Positions 24,527-60,699 of a stretch of 64,000 nt of DNA are shown piece by piece. The stretch covers positions 1 through 64,000 of the forward strand of contig JACPPF010000121.1 in assembly GCA_016191165.1 (NCBI GenBank), in the 5' to 3' direction. This DNA is from Planctomycetota bacterium. GTDB taxonomy: Bacteria > Planctomycetota > Planctomycetia > Gemmatales > Gemmataceae. Position numbers and translations under genes: made by a program. Below the pieces are notes generated by a model. It worked only from the letters and a program-made list of their open reading frames with translations. It did not search any database and was not told the DNA's origin. Within the stretch, counting starts at the first letter, position 1; every line of letters begins with the position of its first letter.

Positions 24527-25522
24527 GTGCCCTTTCAGATTACCTGGGAAACGCGCGACAACGCCTTGGGCCTTGAGGGCTCCGTTGCCGTCCTCGGCGA
24601 TGGCGCCAACCGCCTGGAGGTCTGGCCCGCGCTTGGGTTCAACGCTTTTCGCTGGCAGGCGCGTGGGCTGGAGTTGCTGTATCGACACCCGCAGTTCTTC
24701 AGCGAACGCAAGCCGACGCGCAGCGGGTTTCCGATTCTTTTCCCGTTCGTCAATCGAATTAGCGCCGGTAGGTTCGTCTGGCAGGGAAAAAAATACGACC
24801 TCCCGCTTGGCGATCCGGCGCAGAAAAACGCCATCCACGGCTTCGCGTTCGATCGCCCCTGGCGCATCGTCGATGAAGGCGCCGACACGGGCTCCGCATG
24901 GATCACCGGCGAATTCCACGGCTCCAAGGACGCGCCGGAAACGCGCTCGCTCTGGCCGGCGGACTATCGGCTGCGCGTCACCTATCGACTACTTGATCGA
25001 GTGCTGCGCGTCGAGGCCGACGCGGACAATCCAGACACCGTGCCGTTGCCCTTCGGATTCGGCTATCATCCCTACTTTGCGACCGCCGGCTTCGGCGGCG
25101 CGCAGGCCGGCGTCACCGTGGCGACCGGAAAGTTCTGGGAACTGAAAGATAACCTGCCGACCGGGAACGTCCTCGATGTGGATGAGCGGCGCGACTTGCG
25201 TCACGGCCGGCGCTTCGCCGACCTGCAACTCGACGACGTGATGACGGACCTGTACACGTTTGCCTTCGATCAGGAGGAACGGCTCGGGCTGGTCGCGGTA
25301 ATTCAACATCCGGGCGGGGAACGCATGATGACGCTGTGGACCTCGGAGGACTTTCGCGAACTCGTTCTGTTCACGCCGCCTCACCGGGAAGCGATCTGCC
25401 TGGAACCGTATACCTGCACGACCGACGCGATCAATCTATCCCAAAAAAGTATCGACGCGGGTTGGCGAATCCTGCAACCCGGTGAACACTGGCACGGCAT
25501 CGTCGAGATGCACGTCGCCTGA
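24527..25522 (+). CDS. Aldose 1-epimerase family protein (galactose mutarotase-like)
   Basis: This 331-residue beta-sandwich protein has the mutarotase-type blocks ALGFNAFRWQARGLELLY, SGFPILFPFVNRI, NAIHGFAFDRPWRI with a conserved His, FGFGYHPYF with a second His, and a C-terminal EPYTCTTDAINL carrying the catalytic-type Glu. It interconverts sugar anomers or acts on hexose-6-phosphates. The GTG start at 24527 is supported by a strong GGGGAGGA at 24513-24520. An in-frame ATG at 24419 lies far upstream without a site. Its stop TGA overlaps the start of the methyltransferase gene by one base. Confidence 0.88.
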   Translation: MPFQITWETRDNALGLEGSVAVLGDGANRLEVWPALGFNAFRWQARGLELLYRHPQFFSERKPTRSGFPILFPFVNRISAGRFVWQGKKYDLPLGDPAQKNAIHGFAFDRPWRIVDEGADTGSAWITGEFHGSKDAPETRSLWPADYRLRVTYRLLDRVLRVEADADNPDTVPLPFGFGYHPYFATAGFGGAQAGVTVATGKFWELKDNLPTGNVLDVDERRDLRHGRRFADLQLDDVMTDLYTFAFDQEERLGLVAVIQHPGGERMMTLWTSEDFRELVLFTPPHREAICLEPYTCTTDAINLSQKSIDAGWRILQPGEHWHGIVEMHVA

Positions 25523-26730
25523 TGGCGGATGGGTCCGAGCCTGAGCAACAGCGAAGGGCGCCGCCGGACGAGAAAGTTCCCATGCGAAAAACCAAGAAGC
25601 GAGCCAAGACGTTTCCCGAACTGCTCGAAGCGGTCGCGACGAAGTTGCGCCCGCCGTTTGGCATCCTCCTCGGTTCGCCGGGCGAGGTCGCGGAACTCCT
25701 GCCCGCGTTGCCCGAAGGCGACGTTGCTTGCTACCAGATGGACCTCTACCAGGCCGACCGCCTGCGTGAACATCTCGGCGACCAGGCCGGGCGCGCGACC
25801 ATCGAAATGCATGCGGATTTGTGGGATACGCCCCTCCCCTCTCCCGCCGGGAGAGGGGAGGAGGGTGAGGGTGAGGCCTCTGATGTCTTGGACCTCCCCC
25901 CTCACCCCCGGCCCCTCTCCCAGGGGGAGAGGGGAGGGTTCCAAACCCTGATCTACCCCGTCCCGCACGGCGGCGAGCGGGCGCTCAAACTCGACATGCT
26001 CGAGCAGGCGTTTCACGTAATTAGGCCGAACGGTGCCTTGATCGTGCTGTCGCCGTACGAGAAAGAAGATTTTTTCCAGGGCGCGCTCAAGAAGGTCTTC
26101 GGCAAGGTTCACGCCCCGATGGACGGCGACGGCAAGGTGCTCTGGGCCTTGCGCACCGGCGAGCGCCGGCGCCGGCGGCATGAAATGACCTACCATGTGC
26201 GCGTCGATGAGCAGACCTCCTACTGCTTCGTCTCGCGCCCCGGCGTTTTCGGTTACGGCTTCTACGACGAGGGCGCCCGCGCCTTGATGGAAGCCACGGA
26301 ATTGACGGAAGGCCAGCGCGTCCTCGACCTCGGGTGCGGCGTTGGAACGAACGGCATCCTCGCTGCTCGCCGCATCGGCCCGACGGGCTCGGTCGTTTTC
26401 GCCGACAGCAACGTTCGCGCCATCGCCCTGGCCGAGTTGAACGCCCGCGCCATCGGGGTGCCGAATTTCGAGACGCTCGTGAGCCACACGCTGACCGAAT
26501 TGGCTCCTGCCTCGTTCGACGCCGTCCTCGCCAACCCGCCGTACTATGCTCAGGGCGCGATCATTCGACTGTTCATCGAGCGCAGCCAGATGTTATTGCG
26601 GCCCGGCGGCACGCTTTACCTGGTGACCAAACGAGTGGATACGACCTGGCCGACGATCCAGGAATTCTTCCCTGAGCCCGAGATGTACGAGAATCGCGGC
26701 TACGTGATTTTCCGGAGCACGAAAACGTAG
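25522..26730 (+). CDS. RsmC/RlmG-like rRNA (guanine-N2)-methyltransferase with an in-frame palindromic insertion
   Basis: This 402-residue SAM-dependent enzyme has the duplicated architecture of RsmC. The degenerate N-terminal half spans about residues 30-215. The catalytic C-terminal half has motif I VLDLGCGVGTNG (from residue 267) and NPPY (338-341), which is typical of base N-methylation of guanine. Residues about 104-139 are a proline/glycine-rich stretch encoded by a 108-nt palindromic repeat (25831-25938), which interrupts the first half without breaking the frame. The start ATG at 25522 overlaps the epimerase stop. A second in-frame ATG at 25582 (MRKTKKRAKT) is also plausible. Confidence 0.85.
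   Translation: MADGSEPEQQRRAPPDEKVPMRKTKKRAKTFPELLEAVATKLRPPFGILLGSPGEVAELLPALPEGDVACYQMDLYQADRLREHLGDQAGRATIEMHADLWDTPLPSPAGRGEEGEGEASDVLDLPPHPRPLSQGERGGFQTLIYPVPHGGERALKLDMLEQAFHVIRPNGALIVLSPYEKEDFFQGALKKVFGKVHAPMDGDGKVLWALRTGERRRRRHEMTYHVRVDEQTSYCFVSRPGVFGYGFYDEGARALMEATELTEGQRVLDLGCGVGTNGILAARRIGPTGSVVFADSNVRAIALAELNARAIGVPNFETLVSHTLTELAPASFDAVLANPPYYAQGAIIRLFIERSQMLLRPGGTLYLVTKRVDTTWPTIQEFFPEPEMYENRGYVIFRSTKT
25831..25938. repeat. GC-rich palindromic element inside a coding sequence (108 nt, 36 codons)
   Basis: Two CCCCTCTCCC-type hairpins (25831-25860 and about 25912-25938) flank complementary purine and pyrimidine tracts, so the whole unit can fold on itself. Its length is a multiple of three, and it encodes Pro/Gly/Glu-rich residues within the methyltransferase. 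Related units lie at 27289-27332 (intergenic), 53679-53701 and 59899-59941 (both coding). Confidence 0.85.
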
Positions 26731-27288: not shown

Positions 27289-27332
27289 TCCCCTCTCCCC
27301 TTGCGGGAGTGGGGTTGGGGGTGAGGGGAGGG
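27289..27332. repeat. CCCCTCTCCCC palindromic unit between genes
   Basis: This unit contains CCCCTCTCCCCTTGCGGGAG followed by TGGGGTTGGGGGTGAGGGGAGGG. It is the same family as the elements inside the coding sequences at 25831, 53679 and 59899, and it is located between the cupin and DUF4337 genes. Confidence 0.75.
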
Positions 27333-52808: not shown

Positions 52809-53118
52809 CGTCTTTGATTGTATCCCAAAATAAATACATCATCACCCATCAAAAAGTGGATTTCGCGGGAGTCGAAGCTAGCGGAGTACGATTCACTTTG
52901 AGCCATGCGAACGCTACGCGGCAAACGCCTGAAAAAGTCTGAACTGGGCAAACGGTAGGCCGATCTGCAAAACCTGCTCCTGAATAGTCAACTTTTCAAT
53001 CACTCCAGAAAATGTTTGCACAAAGCCCGCGAACCTGTCATTTTGACAGGATGTTCCGCGCGGAACATGCGCCCATTTTGACCAAATTTGGCAGTCTCGG
53101 CAATCGGGGGTGGCAATC
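52809..53118. other. Intergenic region with stacked palindromes upstream of a hydrolase gene
   Basis: The 310 nt contain no gene that I can support. Two perfect palindromes lie back to back (53034-53050 and 53051-53068), which look like operator sites. The rest is slightly AT-rich and contains the promoters of the flanking divergent genes. Confidence 0.5.
53034..53068. promoter_or_regulatory. Two adjacent perfect palindromes, possible operator
   Basis: CCTGTCATTTTGACAGG (17 nt, 7-bp arms) is directly followed by ATGTTCCGCGCGGAACAT (18 nt, perfect). They lie 51-85 nt before the hydrolase start and 226 nt before the divergent antitoxin-like gene. No other copy was noticed in the window, in contrast to the repeat families. 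Confidence 0.5.
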
Positions 53119-55131
53119 ATGCGATGGTGCGTCGGTGCGTTCCTCGTCGTTTTTGGTTCGATGGTCCCTGCATGGGTTGCGGCACAAGATAAAATGACGA
53201 TCCTGTCGCCGGACCAGGAGCCGCGCACCATGCTGCGCCGCTTTTTGCTGGCAGAAACTCAGAAGCACTTCGACGCGCGCAAGAAAACCGTCGCCGCGCT
53301 GAAGACGCCGGACGACATTCACAAACGGCAAGCCGAATTGAAGGCGAAGTTCATCGCGGCGATCGGCGGGTTCCCGAAGAAAACGCCGCTCAAGGGCAAG
53401 GTCGTCGGGACTTTGAAAGGCGATGGCTTCGTGGTCGAGAACGTCATCTACGAGAGCCGGCCGAACCATCATGTCACGGCGAATTTTTACATCCCCAATG
53501 GCAAAGGCCCGTTTCCTGGCGTGCTGGTGCCTTGCGGGCACAGCAGCAACGGCAAGGCCGCCGACGCCTACCAGCGGGTGTGCATCCTGATGGCCCGCAA
53601 CGGCCTGGCGGTCCTCTGCTACGACCCCATCGGCCAGGGGGAACGATTGCAACTGCTGGACTCCCGCCTCAACCCCGACCCCTCTCCCAAGGGGAGAGGG
53701 GAGAAAACGCCAAAGGGCGCGATCAGGGGCAGCACCAGCGAGCATACGATGGTTGGCGTCGGCGCACTTTTGGTGGGCCAATCGACCGCGGGCTATCGCA
53801 TCTGGGACGGTATACGAAGTATTGACTACCTCGTCTCCCGACCCGAAGTCGATCCCAAACGCATTGGCTGCACCGGCAACTCCGGCGGCGGGACTCTGAC
53901 CGCCTACCTCATGGCTCTCGATGATCGCATCGTCTGTGCGGCGCCGTCGTGCTACATCACCTCGCTGGAGCGACTCTTCGCCACCATCGGTCCGCAGGAT
54001 GCCGAGCAAAACATACCAGGCCAGGTCGCGTTCGGCATGGAGCACGCCGATTACGTCACCCTGCGCGCCCCCCGGCCCACGCTCATCTGCATGGCGTCCC
54101 AGGATTTCTTCGACCAGGCCGGCACCAAGGCAAGCTTCGCGGAAGCCGAGCAAATCTACAAAAAGCTCGGCCACGGCGAACGCGTCGGTCTGTTTGAGTA
54201 TGACGACAAGCACGGCTTCTCGAAGCCGCGCCGCGAGGCGGCCATGCGCTGGATGCGCCGCTGGCTCTTGAACAAGGACGATGCGCCGAGCGAGGGCAAG
54301 TTTCCTTCATTCAAGGATGAGCAACTGCAATGCACGCGCTCGGGCCAGGTGCTTGCCGACTTCAAGGGCGTCTCCGCGTTCGGCTTGAACCTGCTGGAGG
54401 CACGCAAATACACCGCACAACGCGCGCAGTTCGCCAAGTTGCCGGTCAAGGAACGACAGGCGACGATTCGCCGCTTACTTGCCGTGCCAGAAAAGGTTCC
54501 GACCGCGAAGCAGCTCAGCCAGAAGATTCATTCCCTCGAAGATCGCCTGAGCACACACAAGGTTGTTTACGAAACTGAAAAAGGCATCCTGTTGCCTGGC
54601 CTGCGTTTCAAGCACATTCAAGCCAGGGGACCGGTCGTCTTATATTTTCCTGGCGCCGGCTTGCCGACCGATGGCAAACTGCCTGCCTGGCTGAAGGACA
54701 AATACGAAAAGAATCATCAAGAAATCTGGATGTTCGACCTGCGCGGTCTGGGCGAGACGGCGCCGGGCGTGGCGAAAACGCCGGGCTACTTCGGCGTCGA
54801 TCAACGGGAGGCCTGGCTCTCGCTGCACCTCGCTCGCCCGCTCCTGGGTCAGCGCGTGCTGGATGTGCTGGCGCTGATGAATGCCATTGCCGGCGACAAC
54901 GTGGAGATCATCGGCGTCGGAACCACGGGCCCGGTCGTGCTGCACGCGGCCGCGCTGAACGGGCGCATTCGCGAGGTCACGCTGGAAAAATCTTTGCGGT
55001 CGTGGATGAGCGTGGTCGAGCAACCGATCAGTTTCAATCAACTCACCAACGTGGCGCCGGGCGTCTTGAAGGCTTATGACCTGCCGGACCTGGAGCGATC
55101 GCTGTCGCCGCGCAAGGTGATCGTGAAATGA
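53119..55131 (+). CDS. Exported two-domain alpha/beta hydrolase (acetyl xylan esterase-like)
   Basis: This 670-residue exported protein has a signal peptide (WCVGAFLVVFGSMVPAWVAA). Its first hydrolase domain has VLVPCGHSSNGKA, the nucleophile elbow GNSGGG near residue 260 and a late DDKHGFS histidine. The second, degenerate domain (about 450-670, VVLYFPGAGLP, GVGTTGPVVLHAAAL) has a Thr/Gly in place of the Ser elbow. This tandem architecture is common in planctomycete esterases acting on plant or algal polysaccharide acetyl groups. A CCCCTCTCCC palindrome (53679-53701) inserts a Pro/Gly stretch (DPSPKGRGEK) inside domain 1. GTG 53110 is an alternative start. Confidence 0.83.
   Translation: MRWCVGAFLVVFGSMVPAWVAAQDKMTILSPDQEPRTMLRRFLLAETQKHFDARKKTVAALKTPDDIHKRQAELKAKFIAAIGGFPKKTPLKGKVVGTLKGDGFVVENVIYESRPNHHVTANFYIPNGKGPFPGVLVPCGHSSNGKAADAYQRVCILMARNGLAVLCYDPIGQGERLQLLDSRLNPDPSPKGRGEKTPKGAIRGSTSEHTMVGVGALLVGQSTAGYRIWDGIRSIDYLVSRPEVDPKRIGCTGNSGGGTLTAYLMALDDRIVCAAPSCYITSLERLFATIGPQDAEQNIPGQVAFGMEHADYVTLRAPRPTLICMASQDFFDQAGTKASFAEAEQIYKKLGHGERVGLFEYDDKHGFSKPRREAAMRWMRRWLLNKDDAPSEGKFPSFKDEQLQCTRSGQVLADFKGVSAFGLNLLEARKYTAQRAQFAKLPVKERQATIRRLLAVPEKVPTAKQLSQKIHSLEDRLSTHKVVYETEKGILLPGLRFKHIQARGPVVLYFPGAGLPTDGKLPAWLKDKYEKNHQEIWMFDLRGLGETAPGVAKTPGYFGVDQREAWLSLHLARPLLGQRVLDVLALMNAIAGDNVEIIGVGTTGPVVLHAAALNGRIREVTLEKSLRSWMSVVEQPISFNQLTNVAPGVLKAYDLPDLERSLSPRKVIVK
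53679..53701. repeat. Coding palindrome CCCCTCTCCC-AA-GGGGAGAGGGG
   Basis: A 10-bp perfect stem with a two-base loop lies inside the hydrolase reading frame. It shares the CCCCTCTCCC core with 25831-25938 and 27289-27332, and it encodes residues around DPSPKGRG in a loop region of the hydrolase fold. Confidence 0.8.
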
Positions 55132-58311: not shown

Positions 58312-60699
58312 ATGGGTACAACGGTAGTTTTCCGATCCTGTGTGGCGTTTACCTGCGCAAGTTTTCTGGCGGCTCTGCCCAGCCTGGACGCTGGTGAAAA
58401 AACAGTCGCGAGGGTCGAATTCAATCGCGACATTCGCCCCATCCTTTCAGATAAGTGCTTCTTTTGCCACGGGCCCGACGCGGCGCACCGCAAGGCGAAG
58501 CTGCGCCTTGACACCGAGGAAGGCGCTCGCGTGATCGTGGGCGGCAAGCCGGCCGAGAGCGAACTTTATGGCCGCATCACGCAGGTTGAGGGCTCCAAGC
58601 GCATGCCGCCCCCAAAGTCCGGCAAGACGCTCGCCAAGAACGAGATCGAGCTGATCCGCCGCTGGATCGAGCAAGGCGGCACGTTTCAACCGCACTGGTC
58701 GTTCGCGCCGCCCAAACGTCCCCAGGTTCCCGTCAGTCGGCACCCCTGGCCGCGCAATCCGGTCGATGAGTTTGTGCTTGCGAAGTTGCAAGCGCTGAAG
58801 CTGACGCCGGCGCCGGAGGCCGCCAAAGTGACGTTGATTCGGCGCGTTTATTTCGATTTGCTCGGCTTGCCCCCATCGCCGGCTCAGGTCAAAGCTTTTC
58901 TCAAGGATACGCGCGCCGACGCCTACGACCGGCTCGTGGATGCTTTGCTCACGTCGCCGCACTTTGGGGAGCGCATGGCGATGTACTGGCTTGACCTCGT
59001 GCGCTATGCGGACACCGTCGGCTACCACGGCGATCAGGAGCACCATATTTCTCCCTATCGCGATTACGTCATCAAGGCGTTCAATGACAACCTCCCGTTC
59101 GACCGCTTCACGATCGAGCAGCTCGCGGGGGACTTGCTGCCGAATCCGACGACCGACCAGCTAATCGCCACGGGTTACAACCGGGTCTTGCAGACAACGC
59201 ATGAAGGCGGCGCCCAGGACAAGGAATACCTGGCGATTTACTCGGCCGACCGGGTACGGAATCTCGGCGCGGTGTGGATGGGGGCGACCATCGGCTGTGC
59301 CCAGTGCCACAACCACCGCTACGATCCTTATACGCAAAAAGACTTCTACCGCCTCGCCGCGTTCTTCGCCGACATCGACGAGCGCGGCGCCTTCAAGGGC
59401 CCGGACCAGACGCCGACCAAGAGGCCGCCGGAGATCGCCGTGCTCTCGCCGATTGACCGCGCCGAAGCGGAGGCGGTTCGCCAACAGATTGCCGCGCTCA
59501 AGCTCAAACCCAACCGAGGCGATGATCTTGCCGGGCGGGAGAAGTTGCTGGCGGAGATCGAGAAACGCAAGAGCTTGACGATGATCACGAAATCGGTGAA
59601 GCCGCGCGTCATTCGCGTCCTCCATCGGGGCGACTGGATGGACACGAAGAGCGAGATCGTCGACCCGGGGGCGCCTCATTTCATGAAACCGATCGGGGCC
59701 AAGGGTCGCGCCACCCGGCTCGACCTCGCGCGCTGGCTCACCTCGGCGGAACATCCGCAGACGGCGCGCGTGTTCGTCAATCGATTGTGGTATCTCTACT
59801 TCGGCAAGGGCTTGTCGAAGACCCTCGACGACGGCGGCTCGCAGGGCGATTGGCCGACCCATCCCGAATTGCTCGACTGGCTCGCGGCCGAGTTTACGCG
59901 CCCCTCTCTTTCGCGCGGGAGAGGCGCCGCGGGCGCGGGGGAAATCCCCGCCTGGAACGTCAAGCATCTGGTCAAGCTCCTGGTGACATCCGCGACCTAT
60001 CGCCAGTCTTCGCTCGAATCCGATGCGCACCGCAAGCTCGACCCCGGCAACCGCTTTTTCTCCCGGCAATCGCGTTACCGTCTGCCAGCCGAGATGATTC
60101 GCGATCAAGCCCTGGCCGTGAGCGGGCTGCTGGCCGATCGCCTCGGCGGCCGCAGCGTCAAGCCGGCGCAGCCGGACGGGTATTACGCTCACCTGAATTT
60201 CCCCAGGCGGACCTATGTCGCCGACAAGGGACTCGATCAGTATCGCCGCGGCGTTTACACGCACTGGCAGCGGACGTATCTGCATCCGATGTTGCGGGCG
60301 TTCGACGCGCCGACGCGCGAAGAATGCACCGCGCAGCGGCCGATCAGCAACACGCCGCTGGCGGCGCTCGTCCTCTTGAACGATCCATCGTTTGTGGAGT
60401 GTGCGCGCGTTTTAGCCGCGCGCATCATCAAGGAAGGCGGCAAGTCGGACGCCGAGCGCATCGCCTGGGCCTGGCGTCAGGCGCTGTCGCGCGCCCCGCA
60501 CGAACGCGAAGTCGCGGCCCTTGCCAGGCTTTATCAAGCGAATCGCAAGCAATACGCCGACGATCGGGCGGCCGCGCTCAAGCTGACCAGCATCGGTGCG
60601 GCGCCGCGCCCTGCCGACCTTGACGTGGCCGAGCTCGCTGCCTGGACGAGCGTGGCGCGGGTGCTGTTCAATCTCGATGAGACGATTACGAGGAACTGA
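58312..60699 (+). CDS. PSCyt1-DUF1549-DUF1553 exported cytochrome-like protein
   Basis: This 795-residue exported protein has a signal peptide (VVFRSCVAFTCASFLAAL) and an N-terminal planctomycete cytochrome PSCyt1 domain with the heme motif CFFCH (C49, C52, H53) and the GRITQVEGSKRMPPP block. DUF1549 follows (RRVYFDLLGLPPSPAQV, YWLDLVRYADTVGYHGDQ, plus a second CAQCHNHRYDPYTQKD). DUF1553 completes the protein (TRLDLARWLTSAEHPQTARVFVNRLW, FDAPTREECTAQRP). This is the standard planctomycete partner of DUF1501. A GC-rich palindrome (59899-59941) inserts a Ser/Arg/Gly-rich loop near residues 530-545. ATG 58312 has GGAG upstream. Confidence 0.93.
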   Translation: MGTTVVFRSCVAFTCASFLAALPSLDAGEKTVARVEFNRDIRPILSDKCFFCHGPDAAHRKAKLRLDTEEGARVIVGGKPAESELYGRITQVEGSKRMPPPKSGKTLAKNEIELIRRWIEQGGTFQPHWSFAPPKRPQVPVSRHPWPRNPVDEFVLAKLQALKLTPAPEAAKVTLIRRVYFDLLGLPPSPAQVKAFLKDTRADAYDRLVDALLTSPHFGERMAMYWLDLVRYADTVGYHGDQEHHISPYRDYVIKAFNDNLPFDRFTIEQLAGDLLPNPTTDQLIATGYNRVLQTTHEGGAQDKEYLAIYSADRVRNLGAVWMGATIGCAQCHNHRYDPYTQKDFYRLAAFFADIDERGAFKGPDQTPTKRPPEIAVLSPIDRAEAEAVRQQIAALKLKPNRGDDLAGREKLLAEIEKRKSLTMITKSVKPRVIRVLHRGDWMDTKSEIVDPGAPHFMKPIGAKGRATRLDLARWLTSAEHPQTARVFVNRLWYLYFGKGLSKTLDDGGSQGDWPTHPELLDWLAAEFTRPSLSRGRGAAGAGEIPAWNVKHLVKLLVTSATYRQSSLESDAHRKLDPGNRFFSRQSRYRLPAEMIRDQALAVSGLLADRLGGRSVKPAQPDGYYAHLNFPRRTYVADKGLDQYRRGVYTHWQRTYLHPMLRAFDAPTREECTAQRPISNTPLAALVLLNDPSFVECARVLAARIIKEGGKSDAERIAWAWRQALSRAPHEREVAALARLYQANRKQYADDRAAALKLTSIGAAPRPADLDVAELAAWTSVARVLFNLDETITRN
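59899..59941. repeat. Coding GC-rich palindrome inside the DUF1553 domain
   Basis: CGCGCCCCTCTCTTTCGCGC is followed by GGGAGAGGCGCCGCGGGCGC within the PSCyt1 gene. It shares the CCCCTCTC core with 25831-25938, 27289-27332 and 53679-53701, and it adds a Ser/Arg/Gly-rich stretch in a region where related proteins usually have a short loop. Confidence 0.75.

Follow-up and report, generated by a model that had tools for sequence, protein, structure and literature searches.

In-frame insertion of a known triplex-motif repeat into protein-coding genes of a planctomycete

The window analyzed here, a 64,000-nt part of contig C56 in a 7.2-Mb draft planctomycete genome (G000), contains a gene for an RsmC/RlmG-like methyltransferase at positions 25522–26730 of the plus strand. 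It encodes a 402-aa protein with a Pfam MTS domain (PF05175) at residues 235–397, for which the closest solved structures are MJ0882, 3dmf (an rRNA small-subunit methyltransferase), RlmG and RsmC. A palindromic element lies inside this gene at 25831–25938 (protein residues 104–139), as an earlier sequence-only reading of the window had reported. Its 40-nt arms (25832–25871 and 25899–25938) are 88% complementary, and the 402-aa frame runs through it without a stop codon. The element is made of two 36-nt units, inverted and 27 nt apart, both recognized by sequence and pattern match. Unit 1 (25836–25871, plus strand) consists of the arm CCCCTCTCCC, the loop GCC, the arm GGGAGAGGGG and the third strand AGG-AGGGTGAGGG, while unit 2 (25899–25934, minus strand) reads CCCCTCTCCC-CCT-GGGAGAGGGG-CCGG-GGGTGAGGG. 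Folded as single-stranded DNA, the element reached −47.6 kcal/mol, compared to −29.8 ± 3.3 kcal/mol for shuffled sequences (z = −5.4). The peptide that it encodes is predicted to be disordered: in a structure model that is weak overall (mean pLDDT 62, built on four sequences), insert residues 106–138 have a pLDDT below 50 and no secondary structure, with well-formed parts of the N-terminal domain on either side.

Three further occurrences of the same core had been proposed in the window. The one between genes at 27289–27332 is a complete single unit (27291–27326, plus strand), and the stop codon of a cupin (DUF985) gene lies 28 nt upstream of it. The core at 53679–53701 does lie inside a gene, as part of a single minus-strand unit (53667–53700) that is in frame within a 673-aa ORF (53110–55131), albeit with an imperfect third strand. 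This protein, which had no Pfam match at 1e-8, carries ~14 extra codons relative to three congeners. The last proposed copy, at 59899–59941, corresponds to an in-frame hairpin (59902–59925) in a DUF1549/DUF1553 protein; it is degenerate, its loop differs among congeners and it lends the claim weak support, being probably a decayed copy. DUF1549/DUF1553 paralogues carry the repeat in one loop, after DWLA..F, at this window site as well as at L090:1501–1534 and L124:2001–2034, as if that loop were repeatedly hit or tolerated.

The two units of the window element, inverted relative to one another, belong to an already known repeat, the G/C-rich intrastrand triplex motif, with the pattern CCCCTCTCCC-loop-GGGAGAGGGG-NNGG-GGGTGAGGG. 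Holder et al. (2015) described this motif (TM or TMECO) in E. coli and in over 260 bacterial genomes (PMC4666352). The planctomycete repeat shares its arms, the short loop between them and the third strand GGGTGAGGG, and likewise occurs at high copy number, both singly and in inverted pairs. The consensus from 113 units in G000 is CT-CCCCTCTCCC-(3 or 5 nt)-GGGAGAGGGG-YYGG-GGGTGAGGG, with a first loop of 3 nt in 63 units and of 5 nt in 31. Conservation drops within a few bases on either side of the unit, from 1.75–2.0 bits at third-strand positions to mostly 0.02–0.3 bits in the flanking bases. As in the TM definition, the arms CCCTCTCCC / GGGAGAGGG enclose a short loop, and in 114 exact units they are followed, after a second short loop, by the third strand GGGTGAGGG in register for purine-motif triplets. 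Since the second purine tract is approximately a mirror image of the first, each position could form a G.G, A.A or T.A triplet.

The core recurs throughout the 7.2-Mb genome. We counted 97 exact CCCCTCTCCC-N2-10-GGGAGAGGGG palindromes and 114 exact hairpin-plus-third-strand units, with none for a reversed-pattern control, and thus the core is not due to chance. Most clusters are single units, which have no TIR outside the hairpin itself; inverted pairs occur in one geometry only (>< 17, <> 0), with a spacing of 13–54 nt. A search of Rfam yielded nothing above any gathering score, the sub-threshold matches being mostly microRNA hairpin look-alikes. Copy numbers among relatives are patchy: three congeners have 101, 186 and 89 copies, another three have 3 to 11, and many genera among the relatives scanned have none. 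The element was also seen multiplied within one open frame (for example as repeated NPSPKGRGENGA), adding up to ~70 residues (L121:2001–2106, L134:2001–2113, L136:1987–2073 and L126:770–975). A 1180-aa frame (L134:1108–4647) has two separate insertions, at residues 345–360 and 844–883, and at L071:1487–1522 the upstream frame terminates at the TGA within the element (GGGTGAGGG).

The element was inserted into the methyltransferase gene in frame, as orthologues without it demonstrate. A full orthologue was found in ~50 of the 60 relatives searched, and in ~40 relatives both orthologue halves were listed nearly abutting, with query residues ~105–138 missing. An insert of exactly 36 codons had been proposed. 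The element is indeed in frame, but the orthologue alignments have a native loop of ~4 codons at the insertion point, so that the net gain in G000 is 33 codons (99 nt). The closest comparison genomes, at ~55–90% protein identity, are too distant for exact insertion boundaries or a target-site duplication to be read from them. Within the genus, the methyltransferase site is empty in G002, G003 and G005, whereas in the congener G001 the identical site holds a single unit, with a net gain of 11 codons. The site was therefore either filled before the split of G000 and G001 or hit twice, and the insertion probably predates the split.

The same pattern, element-free orthologues with conserved flanks, was found in at least 13 other genes, which brings the number of genes with empty sites among same-genus orthologues (G001, G002 and G003) to at least 14. 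In GatB, G000 has KMLHDE-ALTPGPSPGGKEGKLA-DSLVDLNRTG where G003 has KMLHDE-NAGRN-DSLVDLNRTG, and equivalent comparisons revealed empty sites for AspRS, TyrRS, PurH, SelA, TrpA, Fbp, DnaE2 and the window protein at 53110–55131. Net gains relative to congeners were +11 aa for GatB, +12 for TyrRS, +11 for PurH, +8 for SelA, +32 for Fbp and +15 for AspRS. The TyrRS insert lies between two well-conserved stretches, and the solved enzyme 2ts1 is without an insert there. Some sites are filled in two species (GatA in G000 and G002, L148 in G000 and G001, and also L144, L117 and L001), and thus copies outlast speciation. Frameshift artefacts are ruled out by the orthologues together with the matching coding frame on both flanks.

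We sought to estimate how often copies lie in frame across the genome, using a draft-genome sample in which flanks were taken for most listed copies and a codon-usage score trained on long frames was applied to 240-nt flanks. The sample comprised 91 clusters, two of which entered the count twice; 51 had the same coding frame on both flanks and were open through the element. The rest were in the same frame with a stop (1), shifted with a stop (10), shifted without a stop (2), between opposite genes (6), coding on one side (17) or coding on neither side (4). In most shifted clusters a stop codon falls within the element or next to it, which is what gene ends would be expected to show. With duplicates removed, 49 copies with co-directional flanks were in the same frame and 11 were shifted (p = 2e-14 against an expectation of one third), so it is the insertion as a whole that preserves the frame. 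Copies in G000 do not avoid genes, since 48/85 (56%) were same-frame-open compared with 47% of random positions in the same loci. The hosts include GatB, TrpA, SelA, Fbp, KdpA, AspRS, GatA, TyrRS, PurH, PdxA, error-prone DNA polymerase (DnaE2), squalene-hopene cyclase and a UbiX-family protein, all above NCBIfam cut-offs, as well as a YoaA/DinG-type helicase and an acyl-CoA dehydrogenase below them.

Frame preservation does not extend to the individual unit. The expectation that coding copies would be enriched for lengths divisible by three was not borne out, as loop lengths divisible by three were found in 18/35 coding copies versus 15/23 others (p = 0.42). Net gains range from 24 to 99 nt. 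This lack of a multiple-of-three bias together with variable gains suggests variation in the boundaries or in small flank changes, so that selection for frame would have to come after the insertion event. Coding copies are balanced in orientation (16 sense, 19 antisense) and every stop-free frame is used; one sense frame contains a TGA, within GGG-TGA-GGG. This use of either orientation and of every stop-free frame, and the differing peptides that result, suggest that it is the open frame that is selected and not a peptide.

The coding habit is not found wherever the repeat occurs. In the congener G002, 7/21 copies are in frame, which is not clearly different from G000 (p = 0.09), whereas in G028, from another planctomycete family, only 1/27 is in frame versus 50% of random positions (p = 3e-7 against G000). 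The motif in G028 forms evenly spaced direct arrays (~170–270 nt) almost only outside coding frames (L247:1–3022, with neighbours L245, L246 and L267–L269). In E. coli, TM is reported to be always intergenic (PMC4666352), in contrast to G000, where more than half of the sampled clusters lie in frame within genes. The coding habit thus belongs to the G000 lineage and not to the repeat everywhere.

Rickettsia palindromic elements (RPE) are repeated palindromes that lie in frame in many unrelated genes, and the window element had been taken for their analogue. The likeness holds in how the two work, since element-free orthologues show in-frame insertion here and the planctomycete repeat, like RPE, is observed in frame in many unrelated protein genes. 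However, the repeat is not an unnamed one: its agreement with the TM consensus speaks against the RPE sequence family. RPE belong to another host phylum and are apparently different in sequence, and single planctomycete units are ~36–40 nt. Comparable repeats are known elsewhere. Enterobacter sp. 638 has ~100 copies of CCCTCTCCCXX(X)GGGAGAGGG palindromes, whose hairpin is the same as that of the planctomycete unit, located at the 3' ends of genes and presumed to be terminators (PMC2869309). The enterobacterial mobile repeats RU-1/2/3 are 103–168 bp MITE-like units that lie inside genes and add peptides; like the planctomycete repeat they are small, intragenic and peptide-adding, although their sequence is different (PMC2759123). 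GTAG- and CGTC-tagged REPs are short palindromes found as singles and inverted dimers, with in-frame cases reported inside genes, most of them in R. conorii and in Opitutus terrae, which like the planctomycetes belongs to the PVC group (PMC3733652). They differ from the planctomycete unit, which has neither tag and no linkage to RAYT genes in G000.

As for what moves the repeat, its mobilization as a REP/REPIN by a RAYT, that is by an HUH (Y1) transposase of G000, would fit the eleven Y1_Tnp genes of this genome and the REPIN-like fixed geometry of the inverted pairs (>< 17, <> 0, spacing 13–54 nt). Yet none of the Y1_Tnp genes examined has a motif within ~0.9 kb (two of the eleven being judged from listed motif positions only), the RAYT loci inspected bear other palindromes, the consensus has neither GTAG nor CGTC tag, and the number of Y1_Tnp genes does not track that of motifs, with G029 having 11 genes and 0 motifs. 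We therefore consider this mover unlikely. RAYT-type Y1_Tnp genes at L150:1894–2708 and L016:1337–2120 are flanked by palindromes of their own, for example GACCCTGAAGGGGTCCGAGACATTAGCC in G000 and CCCAGCGATTCATCGCTGGG in G002, which are separate REP families within the same genus. A replication-based process acting on the hairpin is another possible mover.

Other explanations concern the insert rather than its mobility. The repeat might spread a useful linker or interaction loop, given that inserts persist in essential enzymes and that some are common to two species (GatA in G000 and G002; L148 in G000 and G001). However, the copies use several frames and both orientations and encode differing peptides (PSPLAGEG.., PSPSGRGAGGEG, LTPNPSPGGRG and PSPPTPLPQGERG), their hosts are unrelated in function and congeners manage without them, which makes a useful peptide improbable. 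The very stable hairpin fold of the element could instead point to removal after transcription, by RNA processing or ribosome bypass, leaving a normal protein. Such removal needs no open, frame-keeping insert, yet same-frame copies outnumber shifted ones 49 to 11 (p = 2e-14) in co-directional settings, and we regard it as highly improbable. Least probable of all is ordinary loop divergence in GC-rich proteins with no insertion. Some host loops do vary between congeners (UbiX, L112 and window 59902), but a single DNA motif, with 114 copies against 0 in the control, sits in unrelated genes and is missing from the same place in close orthologues, and the empty sites already contradict divergence alone.

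Our combined findings show that the repeat was inserted, that it recurs across the genome with the frame preserved, and that relatives have empty sites. They make it highly probable that frame-keeping copies of this known non-autonomous triplex-motif repeat survive and are read through as a disordered loop for which nothing selects. The methyltransferase copy is a pair of units that entered a loop of this gene, in a lineage where the repeat lands both within and between genes. Frame-breaking landings would be lost and open-frame landings survive, the ribosome would read through the open frame, and the protein would gain a Pro/Ser/Gly/Glu-rich disordered loop that is presumably neutral. More tentatively, and in our view rather doubtfully, the triplex motif may be actively spreading, having moved from intergenic to protein-coding niches through an enzyme or a replication process, and may be a continuing source of in-frame loops in essential enzymes.

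The repeat itself and REPs within reading frames (PMC3733652) are already known. As far as the literature searched shows, what is new is a triplex motif colonizing coding sequence at scale, including essential genes, in planctomycetes: the text of PMC4666352 makes no mention of planctomycetes or intragenic copies, and our literature search found no paper linking 'triplex motif' to Planctomycetes. For annotators this is a warning that PSPLAGEG.. and LTPNPSPGGRG.. peptides will recur across unrelated proteins. A repeat known for its intergenic location and for genome instability is now found at scale inside genes, its presence or absence varying by species. The matched enzymes with and without one loop offer a natural set in which the tolerance of proteins to insertions can be tested directly, and this planctomycete lineage provides a system for finding the mover of the triplex motif.
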